Under the pieces are notes generated by a model, which saw only the letters and a list, made by a program, of their open reading frames with translations, ran no database searches and was not told the origin of the DNA. A program made the translations under genes and the position numbers. Source: a virus. From it: DNA of 24,629 nt. Where the stretch lies: positions 1 to 24,629 of IMG/VR virus record IMGVR_UViG_3300044855_000281; one strand, written 5' to 3'. This document shows positions 1 to 24,576 of the stretch, piece after piece. Within the stretch, counting starts at the first letter, position 1. Every line of letters starts with the position of its first letter.

Positions 1-588
1 GCGCGTCTGGATCAGGATAACAGCCCCACCCGGCATCAGGCGGGTGTAAGCGGTTGACGTGTACCAGTTCCAGATCGTGTCCCGCCGCAGCTCGCTCTCG
101 GCTTCCTCACGGTCCTTCACAGGGTCATCGATCAGCAGGATGTGCGCGCCGCGACCAGTGACCGCTGTGCCGACACCGGCGGCGACATAGGCCCCGCCCG
201 CGTCCGTGTTCCACCTGCCGGCCGCGCGGCTGTCCTCTGCCAGCTTCACGTTGAACAGGCGGCTGAACTCGTTCGTCTTGATGATGTTGCGAACCTCGCG
301 CCCGAAGTCTGAGGCCAGGTCCGAGTTGTAAGACGCCGCGATAATTTGCTTCTGCGGGTTCCGGCCCATGTACCAAGCGGGAAAGCGCCTCGAGGCCAGT
401 TCCGACTTGCCGTGCCTTGGCGGCATGAAGATCATCAGGCGGTCGATCTCGCCCCGTTCAACTGCTTCCAGCTTCTCGGCTATCTCCGAATGAGGCGGGG
501 CGGGCTCATAGGCGTGGTTGGTGTATTCAGTGAACGGGATCAGACCCCTTCGCGCGTGACGCCTCCGCAATAGCTCCTGCGCTGCCAT
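1..588 (-). CDS. Terminase large subunit, N-terminal part (runs off window)
   Basis: This is the ATPase motor of DNA packaging, read by translating the minus strand from the ATG at 588; 196 residues are visible before the left edge. Walker A is at residues 56-62 (PPRHGKS). Walker B with its acidic pair is at 150-155 (ILLIDD), followed by DPVKDREEAES, typical of phage TerL. The C-terminal nuclease domain lies outside the window. The start is inside the preceding TerS-like gene with a 62-nt overlap. No strong ribosome binding site is visible, so translation is probably coupled. The neighbours support the call: a small HTH protein directly upstream is the usual TerS position. Confidence 0.93.
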   Translation of the reverse strand, partial: MAAQELLRRRHARRGLIPFTEYTNHAYEPAPPHSEIAEKLEAVERGEIDRLMIFMPPRHGKSELASRRFPAWYMGRNPQKQIIAASYNSDLASDFGREVRNIIKTNEFSRLFNVKLAEDSRAAGRWNTDAGGAYVAAGVGTAVTGRGAHILLIDDPVKDREEAESELRRDTIWNWYTSTAYTRLMPGGAVILIQTR

Positions 589-934
589 TGCTGGCGATAT
601 AGGCGAGTTGTGCGTCTTCAAGCTCTGCTGGGTCATTCAGGTTTCTGACAACATGTTCAGTGGTTTCTCTCCACCCCATGCGGCGCGCAGCCCATAGCGT
701 GCAGGCCCAGCTTTCCCCGCGCTTGGCTGCTTCGAAGATCTTGCCGCCGACAATCGTGTTGGCTTCGCTGGCGCCATAGTCCAGGTCATCGCGATAGCAG
801 CGGTGCAGCGTCTCAAGGCTCATCTTCAGCACGCCTGCCATCTGTGCGTGCGGAATGCCAATGGCAGACATGATCTTGATCTTGGCGTGCAATTCCTCGC
901 GCGGGTGCTCTTGCCCCTTCTTAGGCCGGGACAT
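527..934 (-). CDS. Putative terminase small subunit (HTH protein)
   Basis: A 135-residue basic protein beginning MSRPKKGQEH with a predicted helix-turn-helix at about residues 20-45 (IGIPHAQMAGVLKMSLETLH). This layout fits small terminase subunits, which recognise the packaging site and hand DNA to TerL. A second helical stretch (about 60-90) could be the oligomerisation part. It overlaps the upstream glycosyltransferase gene by 14 nt and the downstream terL start by 62 nt. The assignment rests on the HTH, size and position next to terL. It could also be an unrelated DNA-binding regulator. Confidence 0.7.
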   Translation of the reverse strand: MSRPKKGQEHPREELHAKIKIMSAIGIPHAQMAGVLKMSLETLHRCYRDDLDYGASEANTIVGGKIFEAAKRGESWACTLWAARRMGWRETTEHVVRNLNDPAELEDAQLAYIASNGSAGAIAEASRAKGSDPVH

Positions 935-1799
935 GGTTCTGCTTCCTGTGAGCCGGGCTTATGATCTTCGGGGCAATGGCGCCCCAGTTAACCTGGTGGT
1001 GTAGGCGCTTCCGGTTGTCGCCCATCAGCGTGATCTTCACCGCGCTTGGGGCGACGATCACGGAATAGAATGATTTCACGTAGGTGCCGAAGGCCTTGTA
1101 GATATCCGTCAGGCCGCCGGCGTTTTCCTGCGTGTTGCCCTGATCGAGCGAGAACAGGGTGGTTGATAGAAACACGCGCGAGCCGTCACGCTGAAGCAGG
1201 CTGCTGTTGACGTCGTCATTGAGCTTGCCGAGGAACTTGAACGGCCGGTCGACGTCGCACAGGAAAAAGTTCATGGCCTTGCGCTTCCACTTGCCCACCT
1301 TGCCCTCACCGCCGCCGATGAAGTCGCCGCCTTGGCAGATGGCGAACGTGGTGAGGTAGGGCACGGACGCATAGAAACGGAGGAGCAACGCGAATACCGT
1401 GTCTAGGTCGTGAATTATGGTGGTGGTCTTGTTGTTCTGCCACTCCTCGCGGAAGCGGAACGCGAAGTGATAGTAATCGTCATCGAGTTGCACAAAGTAC
1501 CGGAAGCCGGCCGCGCGCACCAACTCATGAACCGCATTGCGGGCATAGAGCACGGAACGCCGCTCGGGGAAGTTGTCCACCTCGTCCGCCGGGTCGTAAA
1601 CGTCTTCTTTCGAGAACACGATCAGCTCATCGCCGAACTTTTCCCGATACTGGTCAAGTTCCGGGTCTGCGTCATCAACCACGAGGCGGATGGCGCCGGT
1701 ATATCCCCGCTTGCGCAAGAGCTTGTATGTGGACACGTCGGCGGATCGCTTGTGCGAGAAGATCACCGCGCAAAAGGTCGCCGGATCAATCTTCGCCAT
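921..1799 (-). CDS. TAGT/GREB1-like glycosyltransferase, putative DNA-base sugar transferase
   Basis: A 292-residue protein resembling the TET/JBP-associated glycosyltransferase (TAGT) family that is also found in GREB1. What is seen: an N-terminal nucleotide-sugar-type strand (FCAVIFSHKRS, 9-19), an RN pair at 87-88 (YARNAV), the acidic LDDDY at 105-109 where a DxD sugar-nucleotide/metal site is expected, QGGDFIGG at 156-163, and a second acidic cluster at 195-196 (KLNDD). The frame is open upstream to 1931, but the first 44 residues look like shadow sequence. ATG 1799 begins right where family-like sequence starts and overlaps the ParB-like gene by 14 nt. Phage TAGT proteins are thought to glycosylate modified DNA bases. 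The acceptor here is unknown: no hydroxylase or hydroxymethylase is visible. Confidence 0.65.
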   Translation of the reverse strand: MAKIDPATFCAVIFSHKRSADVSTYKLLRKRGYTGAIRLVVDDADPELDQYREKFGDELIVFSKEDVYDPADEVDNFPERRSVLYARNAVHELVRAAGFRYFVQLDDDYYHFAFRFREEWQNNKTTTIIHDLDTVFALLLRFYASVPYLTTFAICQGGDFIGGGEGKVGKWKRKAMNFFLCDVDRPFKFLGKLNDDVNSSLLQRDGSRVFLSTTLFSLDQGNTQENAGGLTDIYKAFGTYVKSFYSVIVAPSAVKITLMGDNRKRLHHQVNWGAIAPKIISPAHRKQNHVPA

Positions 1800-2622
1800 G
1801 TTGCTCAAGAAAGGCCCCCATGGCCTCGTCCGCCAGTTGAACGTAACCGCGCTTGATGGCGTCATCGAAGTCGATGACCACCAGAGCGGATTGCTCGAAT
1901 AGCGCCTGAACGTCCGCCGGCGCGTGAGCATACTTCTCGGCGATGAGGCCGAAGTTGAAACGGATGTGACGGGACGCGGCGAGCTTCAGAAAGCGGCGCG
2001 TCTCATGGTCAAGGCCTGGCGCCTTATCGATCTCACTTGCGAGTGCGTTGTACTTCTCGACGTCCGCGAGCTTCGCCCATGGCGGGTTCTCGCCGCGGAT
2101 TTCATAGACCGGGGACGCGACCTTGTGGGTGTAGGCGTCATGGTCGAGAAGGCTTTTCTCGGATCCCGAGGCGAACAGGTCATCGAGGAACGCGCCGTCA
2201 AAGCCCATCAGGCCAACGTCAAATCCCTCGGCCTGCAAGTCGCCGATCTCGACCTTGAGCAGGTCCATGTCCCATCCGGCATTCTGCGCCAGCTGGTTGT
2301 CCGCAAGCACATAAGCCCGCTTCTGCGCGTCGGTCCAACCCGTCGCCACGATGCAGGGGACTGCCTCGATCTTCAGCTTGCGCGCAGCCATCACGCGGCC
2401 GTGGCCGGCGATGATCCCGCCCGCTTCATCGATCAGGACCGGGTTGGTCCAACCCCATTCGCGGATTGATGCCGCTATCTGCGCCACTTGCGCCTCTGAG
2501 TGCGTGCGAGCATTCCGGGCGTAAGGGATCAGGCTGGCCACTGAACGACGTTCTGGCGCATCGCTAGGCCACTTCGCGCGCGTTGACGTTACAGTTTTTG
2601 ACTTCACGAAGCGTACGTCCAT
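1786..2622 (-). CDS. ParB/Srx-fold nuclease-domain protein with extra C-terminal domain
   Basis: A 278-residue protein. Residues about 28-112 match the ParB N-terminal fold: LIPYARNARTHSEAQVAQIA, then the IIAGHGRVMAA motif at 70-80 and VLADNQ at 105-110. In phages this domain is often fused to a DNA methyltransferase. Here there is no methylase motif (no DPPY or SAM-binding glycine motif). Instead a C-terminal region (about 165-278, PVYEIRGENPPW through FNFGLIAEKYAHA) of unknown function follows. The ParB fold can bind DNA and hydrolyse nucleotides or DNA. The gene overlaps the upstream structural gene by 19 nt and the glycosyltransferase gene by 14 nt, which suggests the two act together. 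Confidence 0.8.
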   Translation of the reverse strand: MDVRFVKSKTVTSTRAKWPSDAPERRSVASLIPYARNARTHSEAQVAQIAASIREWGWTNPVLIDEAGGIIAGHGRVMAARKLKIEAVPCIVATGWTDAQKRAYVLADNQLAQNAGWDMDLLKVEIGDLQAEGFDVGLMGFDGAFLDDLFASGSEKSLLDHDAYTHKVASPVYEIRGENPPWAKLADVEKYNALASEIDKAPGLDHETRRFLKLAASRHIRFNFGLIAEKYAHAPADVQALFEQSALVVIDFDDAIKRGYVQLADEAMGAFLEQHGED

Positions 2623-11327: not shown

Positions 11328-11936
11328 TCACGCCGCCCTATTCTGGTCGCCTCCACGGGTTCGCCCTGTGAGCCACGACCAATTTCGGCCGGCGGCAATT
11401 CCTGAAATTGTTGCGCGTGTCACGCCGAACTCTGCTGCAAGTTCGGACGTGCGCTTGAGTGGAAGCTGCGCGATGATCGCCAAGACCTGCGCCTCGGTTA
11501 GCGTCGCTTGAGGAAGACTAGAGCCGACACTCAACGTGCCGTGATGGCGCTTGTCTTCACAGTTTTCGCCAGGCGTTGCCCAGCGCAGATGATTTGGATT
11601 GCAGCACGCGGGATTGCCGCACCTGTGCGCGGCCTGAAGCCACGAGGCTGACGGCTCGCCATGCGCTAGAATGCAAACGATCCTGTGCGGACCGGTTTGA
11701 ATGCCTCTGAAGCGAGTGTGCCCATACCCATTCGCGTTGACGCCAAATGGCCAAACAACGCATTCGGCGCTGTCGCTAACCAGAGCGGCGTCTATCCACT
11801 TTTGATGTGCGCCGTTCGGTGCGGTCGCCTTGATCGCAAGCGGGTCGCCGTAACGGCGCAGACCGTCATAGTGATGCTGGCAATAGCCCTTCGCCGCATG
11901 TCGGCCGTCGCACCCCTCAATGCTGCAGGTCTTCAT
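11328..11936 (-). CDS. HNH homing-type endonuclease, copy 1
   Basis: A 202-residue protein with an N-terminal Cys/His cluster (C4, C9, C19, H22), a central HNH motif AHRCGNPACCNPNHLRWAT (103-121) and a C-terminal helix-turn-helix (about 164-182, SELAAEFGVTRATISGI). This is the layout of free-standing phage HNH endonucleases. It starts in an ATGA overlap with the rusA stop and ends 101 nt before the ATPase start, so it looks inserted into the replication operon. A paralogue lies at 23959-24576. Confidence 0.9.
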   Translation of the reverse strand: MKTCSIEGCDGRHAAKGYCQHHYDGLRRYGDPLAIKATAPNGAHQKWIDAALVSDSAECVVWPFGVNANGYGHTRFRGIQTGPHRIVCILAHGEPSASWLQAAHRCGNPACCNPNHLRWATPGENCEDKRHHGTLSVGSSLPQATLTEAQVLAIIAQLPLKRTSELAAEFGVTRATISGIAAGRNWSWLTGRTRGGDQNRAA

Positions 11937-16436: not shown

Positions 16437-16645
16437 CGCCTCACGCGCTCAACCGTCGCCAGGCTGCGGAGTTCGTTGGGGTATCCCCCACGACATTCGA
16501 CAAGCTGGTTGAGCGCGGCCATATGCCCAAGGCGCGGCAGTATCCGGAGACGCGCCGTCTGTTCTGGCTGCGATCCGAACTTGAGGACACCCTTAACGAA
16601 TTGCCAACGGTCGAGGCTAACCCTTACGCTGGGGTTCGCCTGTGA
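16433..16645 (+). CDS. Excisionase-like HTH protein
   Basis: A 70-residue protein with an AlpA/MerR-like helix-turn-helix (LNRRQAAEFVGVSPTTFDKL, 6-25) and wing (RLFWLRSELEDTL). Size, fold and position directly before the integrase fit a recombination directionality factor (Xis). GTG 16433 overlaps the previous stop (GTGA), and its stop overlaps the integrase GTG in the same way. Confidence 0.75.
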   Translation: MTPHALNRRQAAEFVGVSPTTFDKLVERGHMPKARQYPETRRLFWLRSELEDTLNELPTVEANPYAGVRL

Positions 16646-17790
16646 GGCCGGATATGGCATCGATCAAATGGAAAGGCATCACGCGCGACGTGAGCCGACA
16701 CGGCAAGGTGCGCTGGTATTTCAGGGCGCCGGGAAAGCCGCGCGTCAGACTGCAAGGCGAGCCCGGTAGTGAGGAGTTCGCCCTAGCCTACTTCGCAGCC
16801 CGCAATGGCGAGCCCATGCCCCCCGTGCGCTCTACAGGCCCGCGCCGGGGTACGTTCGCCTATATCGTGCGCCACTACCTTACGAGCCGGGATTTCAAGG
16901 CGCTTGACCGAAAACTGACCCAGCGCCCGCGCGAACGGCTGCTAGAGGCGCTGGTCGAGAAGATCGGCCACCTGCCCGCGTCGATTGACCCGATGACGCT
17001 TCGGCAGTCGGTCAAGGACCGCACTTATGCGCAGGGCAAGGACTTCCTCGCCGCGTTGCGCGCTGTGTACCGCCTAGCCTGCGATGACGGGCTGGTCCCG
17101 TCAGATCCAACGGCAGGCATCAGGCGCAAGCCAAACGTCACGGAAGGCCACAGGACGTGGACGGCTGAAGATTGCAAGGCTTATGAGGAAAAGCACCCGC
17201 TCGGAACGCAAGCGCGGACGGCTTACGCCATAGGGCTATATACAGCCCAGCGGATCAGCGATGCGGTGAAGATCGGCAGGCCGCATGAGCGCGACGGGCG
17301 CTTGCGCTTTGTCCAGGCGAAGAACGCGGGGCGCCGGCCCGTCGCAATCGACGTTCCGATAGCGCCGCCTCTCAGGGCCGCGCTGGACGCATGGCAGGGC
17401 AAGGGCCTGACCTACCTTGAGACGGCCTATGGCGAGCCGTTCAGGACCGGGAAGGGCCTACAGAACAAGTTTCGGGAATGGTGCCGGGAGGCAGGGGTAC
17501 ACCCCGATTGCAGCTTTCACGGGCTTCGGAAGGCCACAGCGGCGCGAATGGCCGAGGCGGGCTGCACGCCGCACCAGATCATGGCGGTGCTTGGACACTC
17601 GACGCACCAGCAGGCCGCGACCTACACCGCGAAGGCTCAGCGGGCCGGTCTGGCAGACGATGCAATGGGGGCTGTTTTTGGCCGGTCTGTCTCACCAGAA
17701 ATTCCGAGGCTGTCGCACCTCAGAAAAGCGTCACGAAATCAGACGCTTGCAAAACCGCTGGCAGTCCCTAGGGGAAGGGACAAAGCGTGA
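16642..17790 (+). CDS. int: Tyrosine-family integrase
   Basis: A 382-residue site-specific recombinase. Catalytic residues can be placed: R204 (TAQRISD), K227 (AKNAGRRP), H293 and R296 (SFHGLRKAT), H319 (VLGHSTHQQ) and Y328 (ATYTAKAQ). The N-terminal 60 residues are basic and probably bind arm sites; the core-binding domain is about 70-160. The start is GTG 16642 (GTGA overlap) or ATG 16654. It ends the rightward operon, next to a repeat-dense stretch that is the likely attP, and should integrate and excise the phage with the upstream Xis-like protein. Confidence 0.95.
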   Translation: MRPDMASIKWKGITRDVSRHGKVRWYFRAPGKPRVRLQGEPGSEEFALAYFAARNGEPMPPVRSTGPRRGTFAYIVRHYLTSRDFKALDRKLTQRPRERLLEALVEKIGHLPASIDPMTLRQSVKDRTYAQGKDFLAALRAVYRLACDDGLVPSDPTAGIRRKPNVTEGHRTWTAEDCKAYEEKHPLGTQARTAYAIGLYTAQRISDAVKIGRPHERDGRLRFVQAKNAGRRPVAIDVPIAPPLRAALDAWQGKGLTYLETAYGEPFRTGKGLQNKFREWCREAGVHPDCSFHGLRKATAARMAEAGCTPHQIMAVLGHSTHQQAATYTAKAQRAGLADDAMGAVFGRSVSPEIPRLSHLRKASRNQTLAKPLAVPRGRDKA

Positions 17791-22151: not shown

Positions 22152-23963
22152 TTAGTTCGGGACGCGCAGAAGCTTAAAGCCCGCGCCGCCGCTATCGTTT
22201 GCGCCGAAACTCAACTGCGCGCTGTTGATCAGGATGACAGCGTCAGACGGTAAATTGAGCTTCCCCGAACCAGCTTGACGCCCAAACGTCAGGTTTCCGC
22301 TGGCAATACGGAACGACCAGACGTTCGTGCCGTCGCTCAACACAGAGTGAGCCTCGGAGCCGTTATAGACGTAGAGAGATGTGCTTGTGCCAATTGCCGC
22401 CTTGCCCGCAATGACGGACGATTGAGCCTCGCCCGCAACAAGGTTTTCAAACCCGTACCCGGCAGCGTTGCCCCTTGAGTTGCGCCTCACGATCACCGCG
22501 CCTGTGCCTCCGGTCGGGAGCGGCGTTCCGTTTGCTTCGTCAAGGCGATCAATGACAATCCGGCCCGCTGTGGTGACGCCGACCGTGTCAGTGCCTTCGA
22601 CATAGGCCGCATTCGTGCCGCTATACTGGTCGATATGCAGTGCCTCAGTGTAAGTCGCGTTACCAGCGCGCGTGCCAGACACAAGGAACGGCCTGCCGGT
22701 TCCAACCGAAATAGACCGCAGCATGTTGACAACAATGTTGTCAGCGTTCTTGAACCAGACCGCGTCTCCGTTTGTGTGCAGAAGGTCTATAGAAATAATC
22801 TTCGCTGAAATTGAAGTATTGGCGTTTGACGACCCGTTGAACACAACGCCGATACACGCATCGGACGCAGTCGTGTCGATTAGTCTTCCGGCCATATCAA
22901 GGTCAAAGTTTTGACAGTCCGCAGCTTCGCCAAGCGTCGTGCCGGTGACAAGGCAGTCAAACAAGACCGCCTCGGTGCCCTCGCAGTTGGCAAAGTAAAA
23001 ACGATATATTCCGTTGTATCGCGATGTGACGTGCAATATGCGCGTGGCGTTGCCGCCGCTGTCGAAAGTGATATCAACAAACCCACCAGCATCTTCGCGC
23101 GGCGTACTAGCTGTCCCGCTGACCGTCCTGTGACGCGCCATCGTGATTGCGGCTGTAGCCAGGATACGCGTGCCACCACGTGCGACGTTCGCTCCAACAT
23201 CGTGATTGGAGCCGCGCCCCGCGCCCTTTACGAGAACGTTGGAATACGTGTTATCAAGCACCGAGTTGATTGCGATGTAGCTCGTGCCTGTCGGCGGCAG
23301 GATGACTTCGCCGCCGCCGTCCGTGTTGCACTGAGCCATCGCGGCGGTGATTGCTGTGACGTTGTCCGCTGGTACGCTTCCGGATGTGGAGCCTTGCGTC
23401 AGGCCGAACCACGAAACGTCAATCCGGCCTTTCGTGTAGAGCCTGACAAAACGCCCCGCCCCGCCGCCGTCAATCGCCAAGATCGTCCCGCCGTTTGCGG
23501 TCGTGGTTGATGCGCTGTCATAGAGCCACTGGCCCTGCCCGCCATCGTTCTCCGAAGAGCGGCCAAGCGTCTGATATAGCCCGTTGTCCACAAGCCCTGT
23601 GCTGGACGTTAGCGCCGTAAGCGCCGCATTGTTCGACACGATCAGAGGCGTAAGGACAGCCGCGCCGGCCGCGTCCAGTTCTGCGGGGACGTAGATCGTG
23701 TCGTACGTCACCGCCTCGGCTGCGTCGGTGATGGTGAACGCATAGGACAGCGCGGGGTTGACGTAGACGACACGGCCAGCGGCACCCAGCGTGGCGGGGT
23801 TGCTTGCAGGCGTCGTCAGCTCCGGGTCGGTGTAGAACGTGCGGCGCGTTCCTGTCGGTGCGCCGGCAGATGTCGGAACCCAGCCGTTGACCTTGAACGT
23901 AGACGCAATGGTGCCGTTGGCTGCTACGGCGGGGATGTAAAAAGGTACGCCGTTCGCGCTAAT
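22152..23963 (-). CDS. Tailspike/tail fibre with pectin-lyase-like beta-helix, apparent ATT start
   Basis: A 603-residue receptor-binding protein if read from ATT 23963. The N-terminal 84 residues contain a fibre-type motif (TFYTDPELTTPASNPATLGA, then AGRVVYVN). A pectate-lyase-like stretch (FGLTQGSTSGSVPADNVTAI, GGGEVILPP) opens a repetitive beta-helix. The first canonical start in frame is GTG 23711, which would remove this conserved-looking N-terminus. The ATT lies 5 nt after GGGAGG and overlaps the stop of the upstream HNH gene. No ATG, GTG or TTG precedes GTG 23711 in this frame after the TGA at 23983-23981. Confidence 0.82.
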   Translation of the reverse strand: MSANGVPFYIPAVAANGTIASTFKVNGWVPTSAGAPTGTRRTFYTDPELTTPASNPATLGAAGRVVYVNPALSYAFTITDAAEAVTYDTIYVPAELDAAGAAVLTPLIVSNNAALTALTSSTGLVDNGLYQTLGRSSENDGGQGQWLYDSASTTTANGGTILAIDGGGAGRFVRLYTKGRIDVSWFGLTQGSTSGSVPADNVTAITAAMAQCNTDGGGEVILPPTGTSYIAINSVLDNTYSNVLVKGAGRGSNHDVGANVARGGTRILATAAITMARHRTVSGTASTPREDAGGFVDITFDSGGNATRILHVTSRYNGIYRFYFANCEGTEAVLFDCLVTGTTLGEAADCQNFDLDMAGRLIDTTASDACIGVVFNGSSNANTSISAKIISIDLLHTNGDAVWFKNADNIVVNMLRSISVGTGRPFLVSGTRAGNATYTEALHIDQYSGTNAAYVEGTDTVGVTTAGRIVIDRLDEANGTPLPTGGTGAVIVRRNSRGNAAGYGFENLVAGEAQSSVIAGKAAIGTSTSLYVYNGSEAHSVLSDGTNVWSFRIASGNLTFGRQAGSGKLNLPSDAVILINSAQLSFGANDSGGAGFKLLRVPN

Positions 23964-24576
23964 TGTAGCCTCCCACGGATTTCAGTTTTGCTTGATAAGT
24001 TCTTTTGTTCGGAAGGCCCGTTACGGACGTCCAAACAGCTCCGCGCTTGATCGCTGCGACGGTGGTTCGAGAAACGCCGAAATCTTCTGCAACCAGGCGA
24101 TGTATTCTGTTGTCGCTCAGGATCATGGCGACGTCGTCTGCACTCAGTTTGGCTGTCGGCCTGGCCTCGCCAGACGAGCGCGTTCCATGAACAATCTGGT
24201 CGTCTGAGTTTTGCTGCGGAGTGGCCCAGTACAGGTGGTTCGGATTAACGCAGGCAGGAACACCGCACCGATGCGCAGCCTCCGCGTGATCGAATGGCGG
24301 GCTCCCATGCGCGAGAATACACATGGCCCTTGAGGCGGCCATCTTTTGCCCGTTGAGAGACGCGCCGCCGTAACCCTTTTGGCGACGTCCGTATGGCCAT
24401 ATCAAGCAGTCTGCTGACTTGTGTTCGGTATGCTGCAAGAGAAAACTCTGCGTCATTCCGCGTCGATAACTTGGTTTGATAGCTCCATGTCTCGTCAAAC
24501 GGGCGTAGCAGGTTCCGCAGAAGCCGCGAGCCAACACTTTGTTTCTGCCGCACTCAGAACAGCAAGTTGCGGCCAT
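23959..24576 (-). CDS. HNH homing-type endonuclease, copy 2
   Basis: A 205-residue paralogue of the 11328-11936 protein. It has N-terminal zinc-type cysteines (C6, C9, C20, C23), a central AHRCGVPACVNPNHLYWAT HNH motif (101-119) and a C-terminal helix-turn-helix (RLVAEDFGVSRTTVAAIKRG). It starts after a terminator, with GGAG upstream of ATG 24576, and ends at the tailspike start. No intron or upstream exon of the tailspike is seen, so it is a free-standing endonuclease inserted between genes. Confidence 0.9.
   Translation of the reverse strand: MAATCCSECGRNKVLARGFCGTCYARLTRHGAIKPSYRRGMTQSFLLQHTEHKSADCLIWPYGRRQKGYGGASLNGQKMAASRAMCILAHGSPPFDHAEAAHRCGVPACVNPNHLYWATPQQNSDDQIVHGTRSSGEARPTAKLSADDVAMILSDNRIHRLVAEDFGVSRTTVAAIKRGAVWTSVTGLPNKRTYQAKLKSVGGYN

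Follow-up and report, generated by a model that had tools for sequence, protein, structure and literature searches.

The occurrence of a TAGT-family glycosyltransferase next to a ParB-fold protein, immediately before the terminase genes of a virus, raises the question of what this enzyme glycosylates and which part of its neighbor it works with. The locus addressed here lies in a 24.6-kb virus fragment (24,629 nucleotides; "the window" denotes this whole stretch of analyzed DNA), the end of which falls inside terL. The original prediction, made from the sequence alone, treated the two genes as a unit and suggested a compact DNA-modification or packaging-linked marking system. The TAGT family was reportedly named by Iyer et al. 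in 2013. According to a study of T-even glucosyltransferases from 2026, TAGT is unaccompanied by either the alpha- or the beta-glucosyltransferase in 288 of 753 phage genomes, which may encode novel transferases; ParB goes unmentioned in its TAGT discussion (PMC13216743).

The two genes and their products

The analyzed features are listed below by window coordinates (CTD, C-terminal domain).

1..636, minus strand: terminase large subunit (terL), N-terminal part, cut by the window end (Terminase_6N E 3e-13; PHROG 4758 E 5e-61)
527..934, minus strand: probable terminase small subunit (terS), from a weak match (PHROG 309 E 6e-4) and its position before terL
921..1799, minus strand: TAGT glycosyltransferase, 292 aa (PF20691; AF2 pLDDT 90.5; PDB matches to GT-A glycosyltransferases)
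996..1001, minus strand: HH, TAGT residues 267-268, conserved C-terminal pair (87-88 of 93 relatives)
1212..1214, minus strand: D196 of the N-(E/D)-D-V motif, candidate catalytic base (93/93)
1473..1484, minus strand: DDDY, TAGT residues 106-109, metal/nucleotide-sugar DxD motif (alignment of 93 relatives)
1786..1799, minus strand: 14-bp ParB-CTD/TAGT overlap, translational coupling likely
1786..2622, minus strand: ParB-CTD putative adaptor protein, 278 aa (PHROG 620 E 3e-61; AF2 mean pLDDT 85.7, two folded domains)
1825..2145, minus strand: CTD, residues 160-266, near-obligate TAGT partner domain (no Pfam family)
2101..2133, minus strand: conserved flexible linker motif Y164...P171-x-Y173-E174, candidate docking segment
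2161..2556, minus strand: ParB fold, residues 23-154 (Foldseek to KorB/ParB/Noc E 9e-7; PHROG 498 E 1e-50)
2395..2406, minus strand: GHGR, residues 73-76, at the position of ParB nucleotide-binding box II (G73 84/85, R76 81/85)
2604-2978: gene upstream of ParB-CTD

Both genes are open on the minus strand at the coordinates originally given and, as predicted, overlap, forming part of a head-to-tail overlapping series of ParB-CTD, TAGT, probable terS and terL, in which a further 14 bp are shared between TAGT and the next gene. Of the 169 relatives that lack an intervening gene, 166 have overlapping frames for CTD and TAGT. Of the expected terminase genes, terL is clear and terS probable from its weak match; the gene on the other side, 2604-2978, was expected to be structural, for which a sub-threshold TIG match is the sole lead. 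Since the window is a fragment ending inside terL, no gene can be claimed to be absent from the whole virus. A phage integrase gene (16642-17790, plus strand; PF00589 E 1e-12) indicates that the virus is probably temperate, and two HNH endonuclease genes of similar domain order are found at 11328-11936 and 23959-24576 (minus strand).

Profile and structure comparisons both bear out the TAGT assignment of 921-1799, with a match to PF20691 (E 3.4e-29; 102.7 bits vs. a curated Pfam cut-off of 27.5), a match to PHROG 842 (beta-glucosyl-HMC-alpha-glucosyltransferase; E 1e-52) and an AF2 model of the GT-A fold whose best PDB matches are chondroitin polymerase, SunS, GnT-I, SpsA and TarP; a sequence search of solved structures with the TAGT profile gave no match. 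The RN (87-88) and LDDDY (105-109) motifs are located where they had been noted, and an acidic DxD motif is thereby present within the GT-A fold. Among 93 aligned relatives, R87, D107 and D108 are kept in all, as is D72, while N88 is kept in 91, D106 in 86 (E in the other 7) and Y109 in 87.

The ParB fold with GHGR was likewise correctly recognized in the upstream protein, as was the lack of a methyltransferase: the PHROG 498 match corresponds to the N-terminal part of a ParB-DNA methylase, and a Pfam scan of 1786-2622 revealed no methylase domain. Pfam ParB_N stays below its cut-off on this protein (20.8 vs. 26.3), and so does TIGR00180, representing the canonical ParB architecture (21.9 vs. 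58.45 bits). The ParB fold and the box-II arginine are shared with the ParB/KorB/Noc CTPase clamps, which, however, have an HTH and a dimerization domain where this protein has a helical CTD, confidently modeled by AF2 as a small domain at about residues 181-250. In other ParB-fold proteins, an R-to-A substitution in box II abolishes NTP binding (PMC12704722). Nearly invariant positions occur in the linker before the helical domain (Y164 84/85, Y173 85/85, also P171), yet pLDDT is below 50 at residues 157-168, a combination that makes it a candidate docking segment for another protein.

The CTD as the TAGT partner

Viral and bacterial collections yielded about 200 loci, which were reduced at 70% TAGT identity (L numbers below denote individual loci). 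The anticipated co-occurrence of ParB-like and TAGT genes upstream of terminase genes holds across very diverse phages, the cassette being found in phages of Proteobacteria, Firmicutes, Bacteroidetes, Actinobacteria and haloarchaea. A CTD precedes TAGT in 58 of 58 non-redundant loci with room upstream, a figure that describes the closest relatives of this TAGT clade rather than all TAGTs, half of them having been fetched with a ParB-CTD query. Fifty of these CTDs are fused to a recognized ParB fold and 8 have no detected ParB fold; this split depends on profile sensitivity, and the ParB total includes three divergent domains that escaped the model but were identified by eye. Indeed, in Vibrio phage pv27 the gene before TAGT is a CTD alone, and stand-alone CTDs also precede TAGT in L006, L174, L182, L188 and others. 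A search for relatives with the lone Vibrio CTD as a query returned fragments only.

Across 61 non-redundant loci, CTD identities follow TAGT identities (Mantel r = 0.67, a value reached by 0 of 2000 permutations), whereas ParB identities do so weakly (r = 0.18, p = 0.019). Lone CTDs and this distance test led us to abandon ParB as the conserved TAGT partner, an element of the original prediction that had to be replaced: by comparative sequence evidence, the CTD rather than the ParB fold is the real partner. Natural damage conforms to the same pattern. Three different internal deletions in Lactobacillus delbrueckii phages LL-Ku (L218), Ld17 (L219) and Ld25A (L010) each remove the CTD and truncate TAGT together, and the CTD-less exceptions among the relatives are damaged genes. 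Such repeated losses also indicate that the cassette is dispensable. Two apparent departures were discounted: the lone CTD of prophage L155 is not a genuine TAGT-free form, TAGT having been taken away by a deletion reaching terS, and the phosphatase N-terminus is missing from an apparent ParB-CTD/phosphatase fusion in L110, which may have arisen by deletion or in assembly. Overall, we consider the CTD-TAGT partnership and its genomic context to be solid.

The CTD is acidic and TAGT basic (mean charges of -8 and +5), which is a weak hint of CTD-TAGT binding with TAGT facing DNA.

Genomic slot and exchange with DNA methylases

In E. coli Rac-type prophages, in Lactobacillus phages jlb1 and c5 and in Porphyromonas phage 005b, terS/terL come after the ParB-CTD/TAGT pair. 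In Nocardia phage NTR1 and, at a distance of about 3 kb, in haloarchaeal HHTV-2, the pair is followed by terL. ORFs 3' of TAGT match many terminase families (PHROGs 2, 979, 10250, 38, 15, 675 and others). Because the slot stays fixed while the terminases are unrelated, an acceptor or function tied to a single terminase is disfavored, and a packaging factor of that kind was rejected. Lone-CTD loci lie elsewhere, in replication modules where readable: the order in L182 is DNA polymerase A, CTD, TAGT and processivity factor (sliding clamp), and the L174 pair follows a primase-helicase. Of the two functions originally proposed, DNA modification is the one best supported by context, whereas a packaging link is not required, given the lone-CTD cassettes in replication modules, the unrelated terminases and the natural deletions.

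The pair is present at at least 80% coverage in 887 of 5,426 complete E. coli genomes (about 16%), in a Rac-type prophage. E. coli K-12 is not a ready host of the pair: ynaK of its Rac prophage (NC_000913.3 1425377-1425640; L212), 98% identical to intact prophages, comprises the first 86 residues of the ParB domain, and the CTD, TAGT and the start of packaging have been deleted. The gene ydaY was considered as a K-12 TAGT and rejected.

In related phages, the same slot is occupied by ParB fused to a DNA methylase (PHROG 498), five of them in the packaging region. The nearest ParB domain among the annotated-phage matches listed (70.5% identity) belongs to an N6_N4_Mtase fusion encoded directly before a putative DNA-binding gene and terL. 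In Lactobacillus CR191, such a fusion immediately precedes terS/terL. A single small gene separates it from terL in the archaeal Methanoculleus virus L4768; in Streptococcus Javan28 it lies two genes ahead of terL, and in Terrisporobacter TPDSL_ph1 it comes immediately after terS. These systems resemble the present one in a ParB domain up to 70% identical and in the slot near terS/terL, but they carry a fused N6/N4 DNA methylase in place of a CTD and a separate TAGT. The recurrence of the ParB domain with different DNA-modifying enzymes in one slot is our main argument that the acceptor of TAGT is probably DNA. On the opposite side, the neighborhood of packaging genes is a common site for unrelated extra genes.

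A distinct precedent is provided by the DNA cytosine carboxymethyltransferase CmoX: a 2025 study noted ParB proteins near these phage DNA-modifying enzymes and called their role unknown, although the enzyme and its chemistry differ and TAGT is not mentioned (PMC12783734). A survey of ParB folds lists methylase fusions, and the word "glycosyltransferase" is absent from it (PMC12704722). No paper on the ParB-CTD/TAGT pair was found in the literature searched, outside of which the TAGT founding paper falls, and priority is therefore uncertain.

A protein acceptor, be it part of the virion, a factor of the host or ParB-CTD itself, with the CTD acting as acceptor or substrate adaptor, appears unlikely to us, while deserving consideration on three grounds. 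Peptides or proteins are the substrates of several of the nearest GT-A structures (SunS, ppGalNAc-T, GnT-I), the flexible linker of the CTD contains invariant Tyr residues, and GREB1, a relative of TAGT, is reported as a protein O-GlcNAc transferase. The same ParB partner, however, carries DNA methylases elsewhere in the same slot, the L182 pair is flanked by genes for a DNA polymerase and a sliding clamp, the unrelated terminase families leave no common terminase acceptor, and the TAGT of T6 acts on DNA according to the TAGT discussion cited above (PMC13216743).

Accessory genes and donor sugars

Genes adjoining the cassette provide clues to the donor. TAGT of L085 (6816-9007) is followed by a UDP-glucuronate decarboxylase (E 7e-110) and a UDP-glucose 6-dehydrogenase (E 3e-111), which together are a predicted phage-borne UDP-xylose route. 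A cytidylyltransferase-like gene adjoins TAGT or the pair in 18 loci, fused in 13 of them to a histidine phosphatase; this fusion (L117:834-1787 and 12 similar loci) is inserted between ParB-CTD and TAGT and, by its likeness to glycerol-3-phosphate cytidylyltransferase/heptose-1-phosphate adenylyltransferase, probably serves donor synthesis. A SAM methyltransferase gene separates CTD and TAGT in 4 loci, and tandem full-length TAGTs occur in 5. In 8 loci (L193:6850-7803, L011, L181, L185, L187, L189, L196, L197), a radical-SAM gene directly follows TAGT, and its product might make the acceptor or alter the sugar. These accessory genes are in keeping with the transfer of varied nucleotide-activated sugars. 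As a separate observation, a gene of the 6-pyruvoyl-tetrahydropterin synthase family (QueD-like; L059:8400-8777) is located about 1.5 kb after a lone-CTD/TAGT pair, making a link to 7-deazaguanine possible.

Search for acceptor-making enzymes

The original prediction saw no hydroxylase or other source of a modified base and left the acceptor unassigned, and both statements stand. Methylase and hydroxylase families had no match among the ORFs scanned in the window, a fragment ending inside terL. Searches of long relatives, which took in the whole records of c5, jlb1, HHTV-2, NTR1 and the Porphyromonas phage, did not find the usual acceptor-making routes either: PF00145 (C5 cytosine methylase) matched 0 of 14 relatives with working positive controls, Tet_JBP matched 0 of 16 in a search run without a positive control, and a T-even type dCMP hydroxymethylase (thymidylate-synthase-like) was not found in 16 relatives, the genome of the window itself being incomplete. 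The single PF00303 match among 16 relatives, in pv27, was rejected as an hmC synthase, as it is an annotated thymidylate synthase adjoining dihydrofolate reductase. A hydroxylated-base acceptor is accordingly left unsupported, and the pair seems to work either without a hydroxylated base or with an unrecognized enzyme.

These results weigh directly on a T-even-like scheme, in which TAGT would decorate a hydroxylated base supplied by the host or by phage genes outside the window. The T6 TAGT belongs to the same family (PF20691 E 1e-8; PHROG 842 E 5e-78), has the GT-A fold and adjoins a dCMP hydroxymethylase; it differs in having no CTD or ParB nearby, and the profile of the present clade against the single T6 sequence gave an hhalign probability of 0.5%. 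The fragmentary state of the window and the radical-SAM genes, which could make an acceptor, speak for such a scheme, but the outcome of the PF00303, PF00145 and Tet_JBP searches renders it quite improbable.

We give still less credence to the idea that ParB is a nicking nuclease or packaging-site factor accompanied by TAGT as a passenger or toxin-like gene. A Bacillus cereus ParB-methylase nicks DNA non-specifically, as cited in PMC5512222, and the start of the c5 gene is 90 bp from the cos site. On the other hand, the CTD diverges in parallel with TAGT and the two are damaged together, ParB is the component absent from some loci, and the dispensable cassette is found ahead of unrelated terminases. 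Finally, a prophage superinfection-exclusion or defense pair modifying incoming DNA or a host component, as might be imagined from its frequency in temperate E. coli prophages beside trkG, is hardly credible in view of a gene position that argues for late expression and of its presence in the isolated phages Lactobacillus c5, haloarchaeal HHTV-2 and Vibrio pv27 (c5 and pv27 being lytic).

Proposed mechanism and implications

The reading we favor, at a probability slightly better than even (roughly 0.5), is that the pair forms a glycosyltransferase of two components, with ParB-CTD directing TAGT to phage DNA around packaging. TAGT would be the catalytic GT-A subunit, moving a sugar from a nucleotide-sugar via its DDD motif, and the CTD with its conserved flexible linker motif would bind TAGT and be needed for it to work. 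The ParB fold may be an interchangeable DNA/NTP module through which the transferase reaches phage DNA; where related phages have DNA methylases joined to this fold, it probably serves them likewise. Modification of phage DNA late, around packaging, would protect it from restriction in the next host. From the gene contents and models compared here, we infer the physical CTD-TAGT binding, the targeting by ParB, the DNA acceptor and the anti-restriction benefit of this scheme. The searches of long relatives revealed none of the known routes to an acceptor. The sugar would therefore be placed either on a base without prior modification, with the sites probably limited, or on one produced by an unrecognized enzyme. 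The more specific version, in which a ParB-guided enzyme activated by the CTD would attach the sugar straight to an unmodified DNA base, at limited sites and in the course of packaging, is put forward as a tentative and rather doubtful refinement. Counting against a DNA acceptor, we know of no DNA modification reported from the hundreds of E. coli lysogens that carry the pair.

For the relatives examined, this analysis identifies a partner domain of TAGT and a genomic slot that is conserved, together with swap partners and clues to donor sugars. With about 16% of complete E. coli genomes carrying the pair, the question of solitary TAGTs becomes directly testable in this species. Should the more specific version with direct transfer to an unmodified base be true, the cassette would be to sugars what a DNA methyltransferase is to methyl groups, would require no hydroxylated base, would include a new adaptor domain (the CTD) and would be common to bacterial and archaeal viruses.
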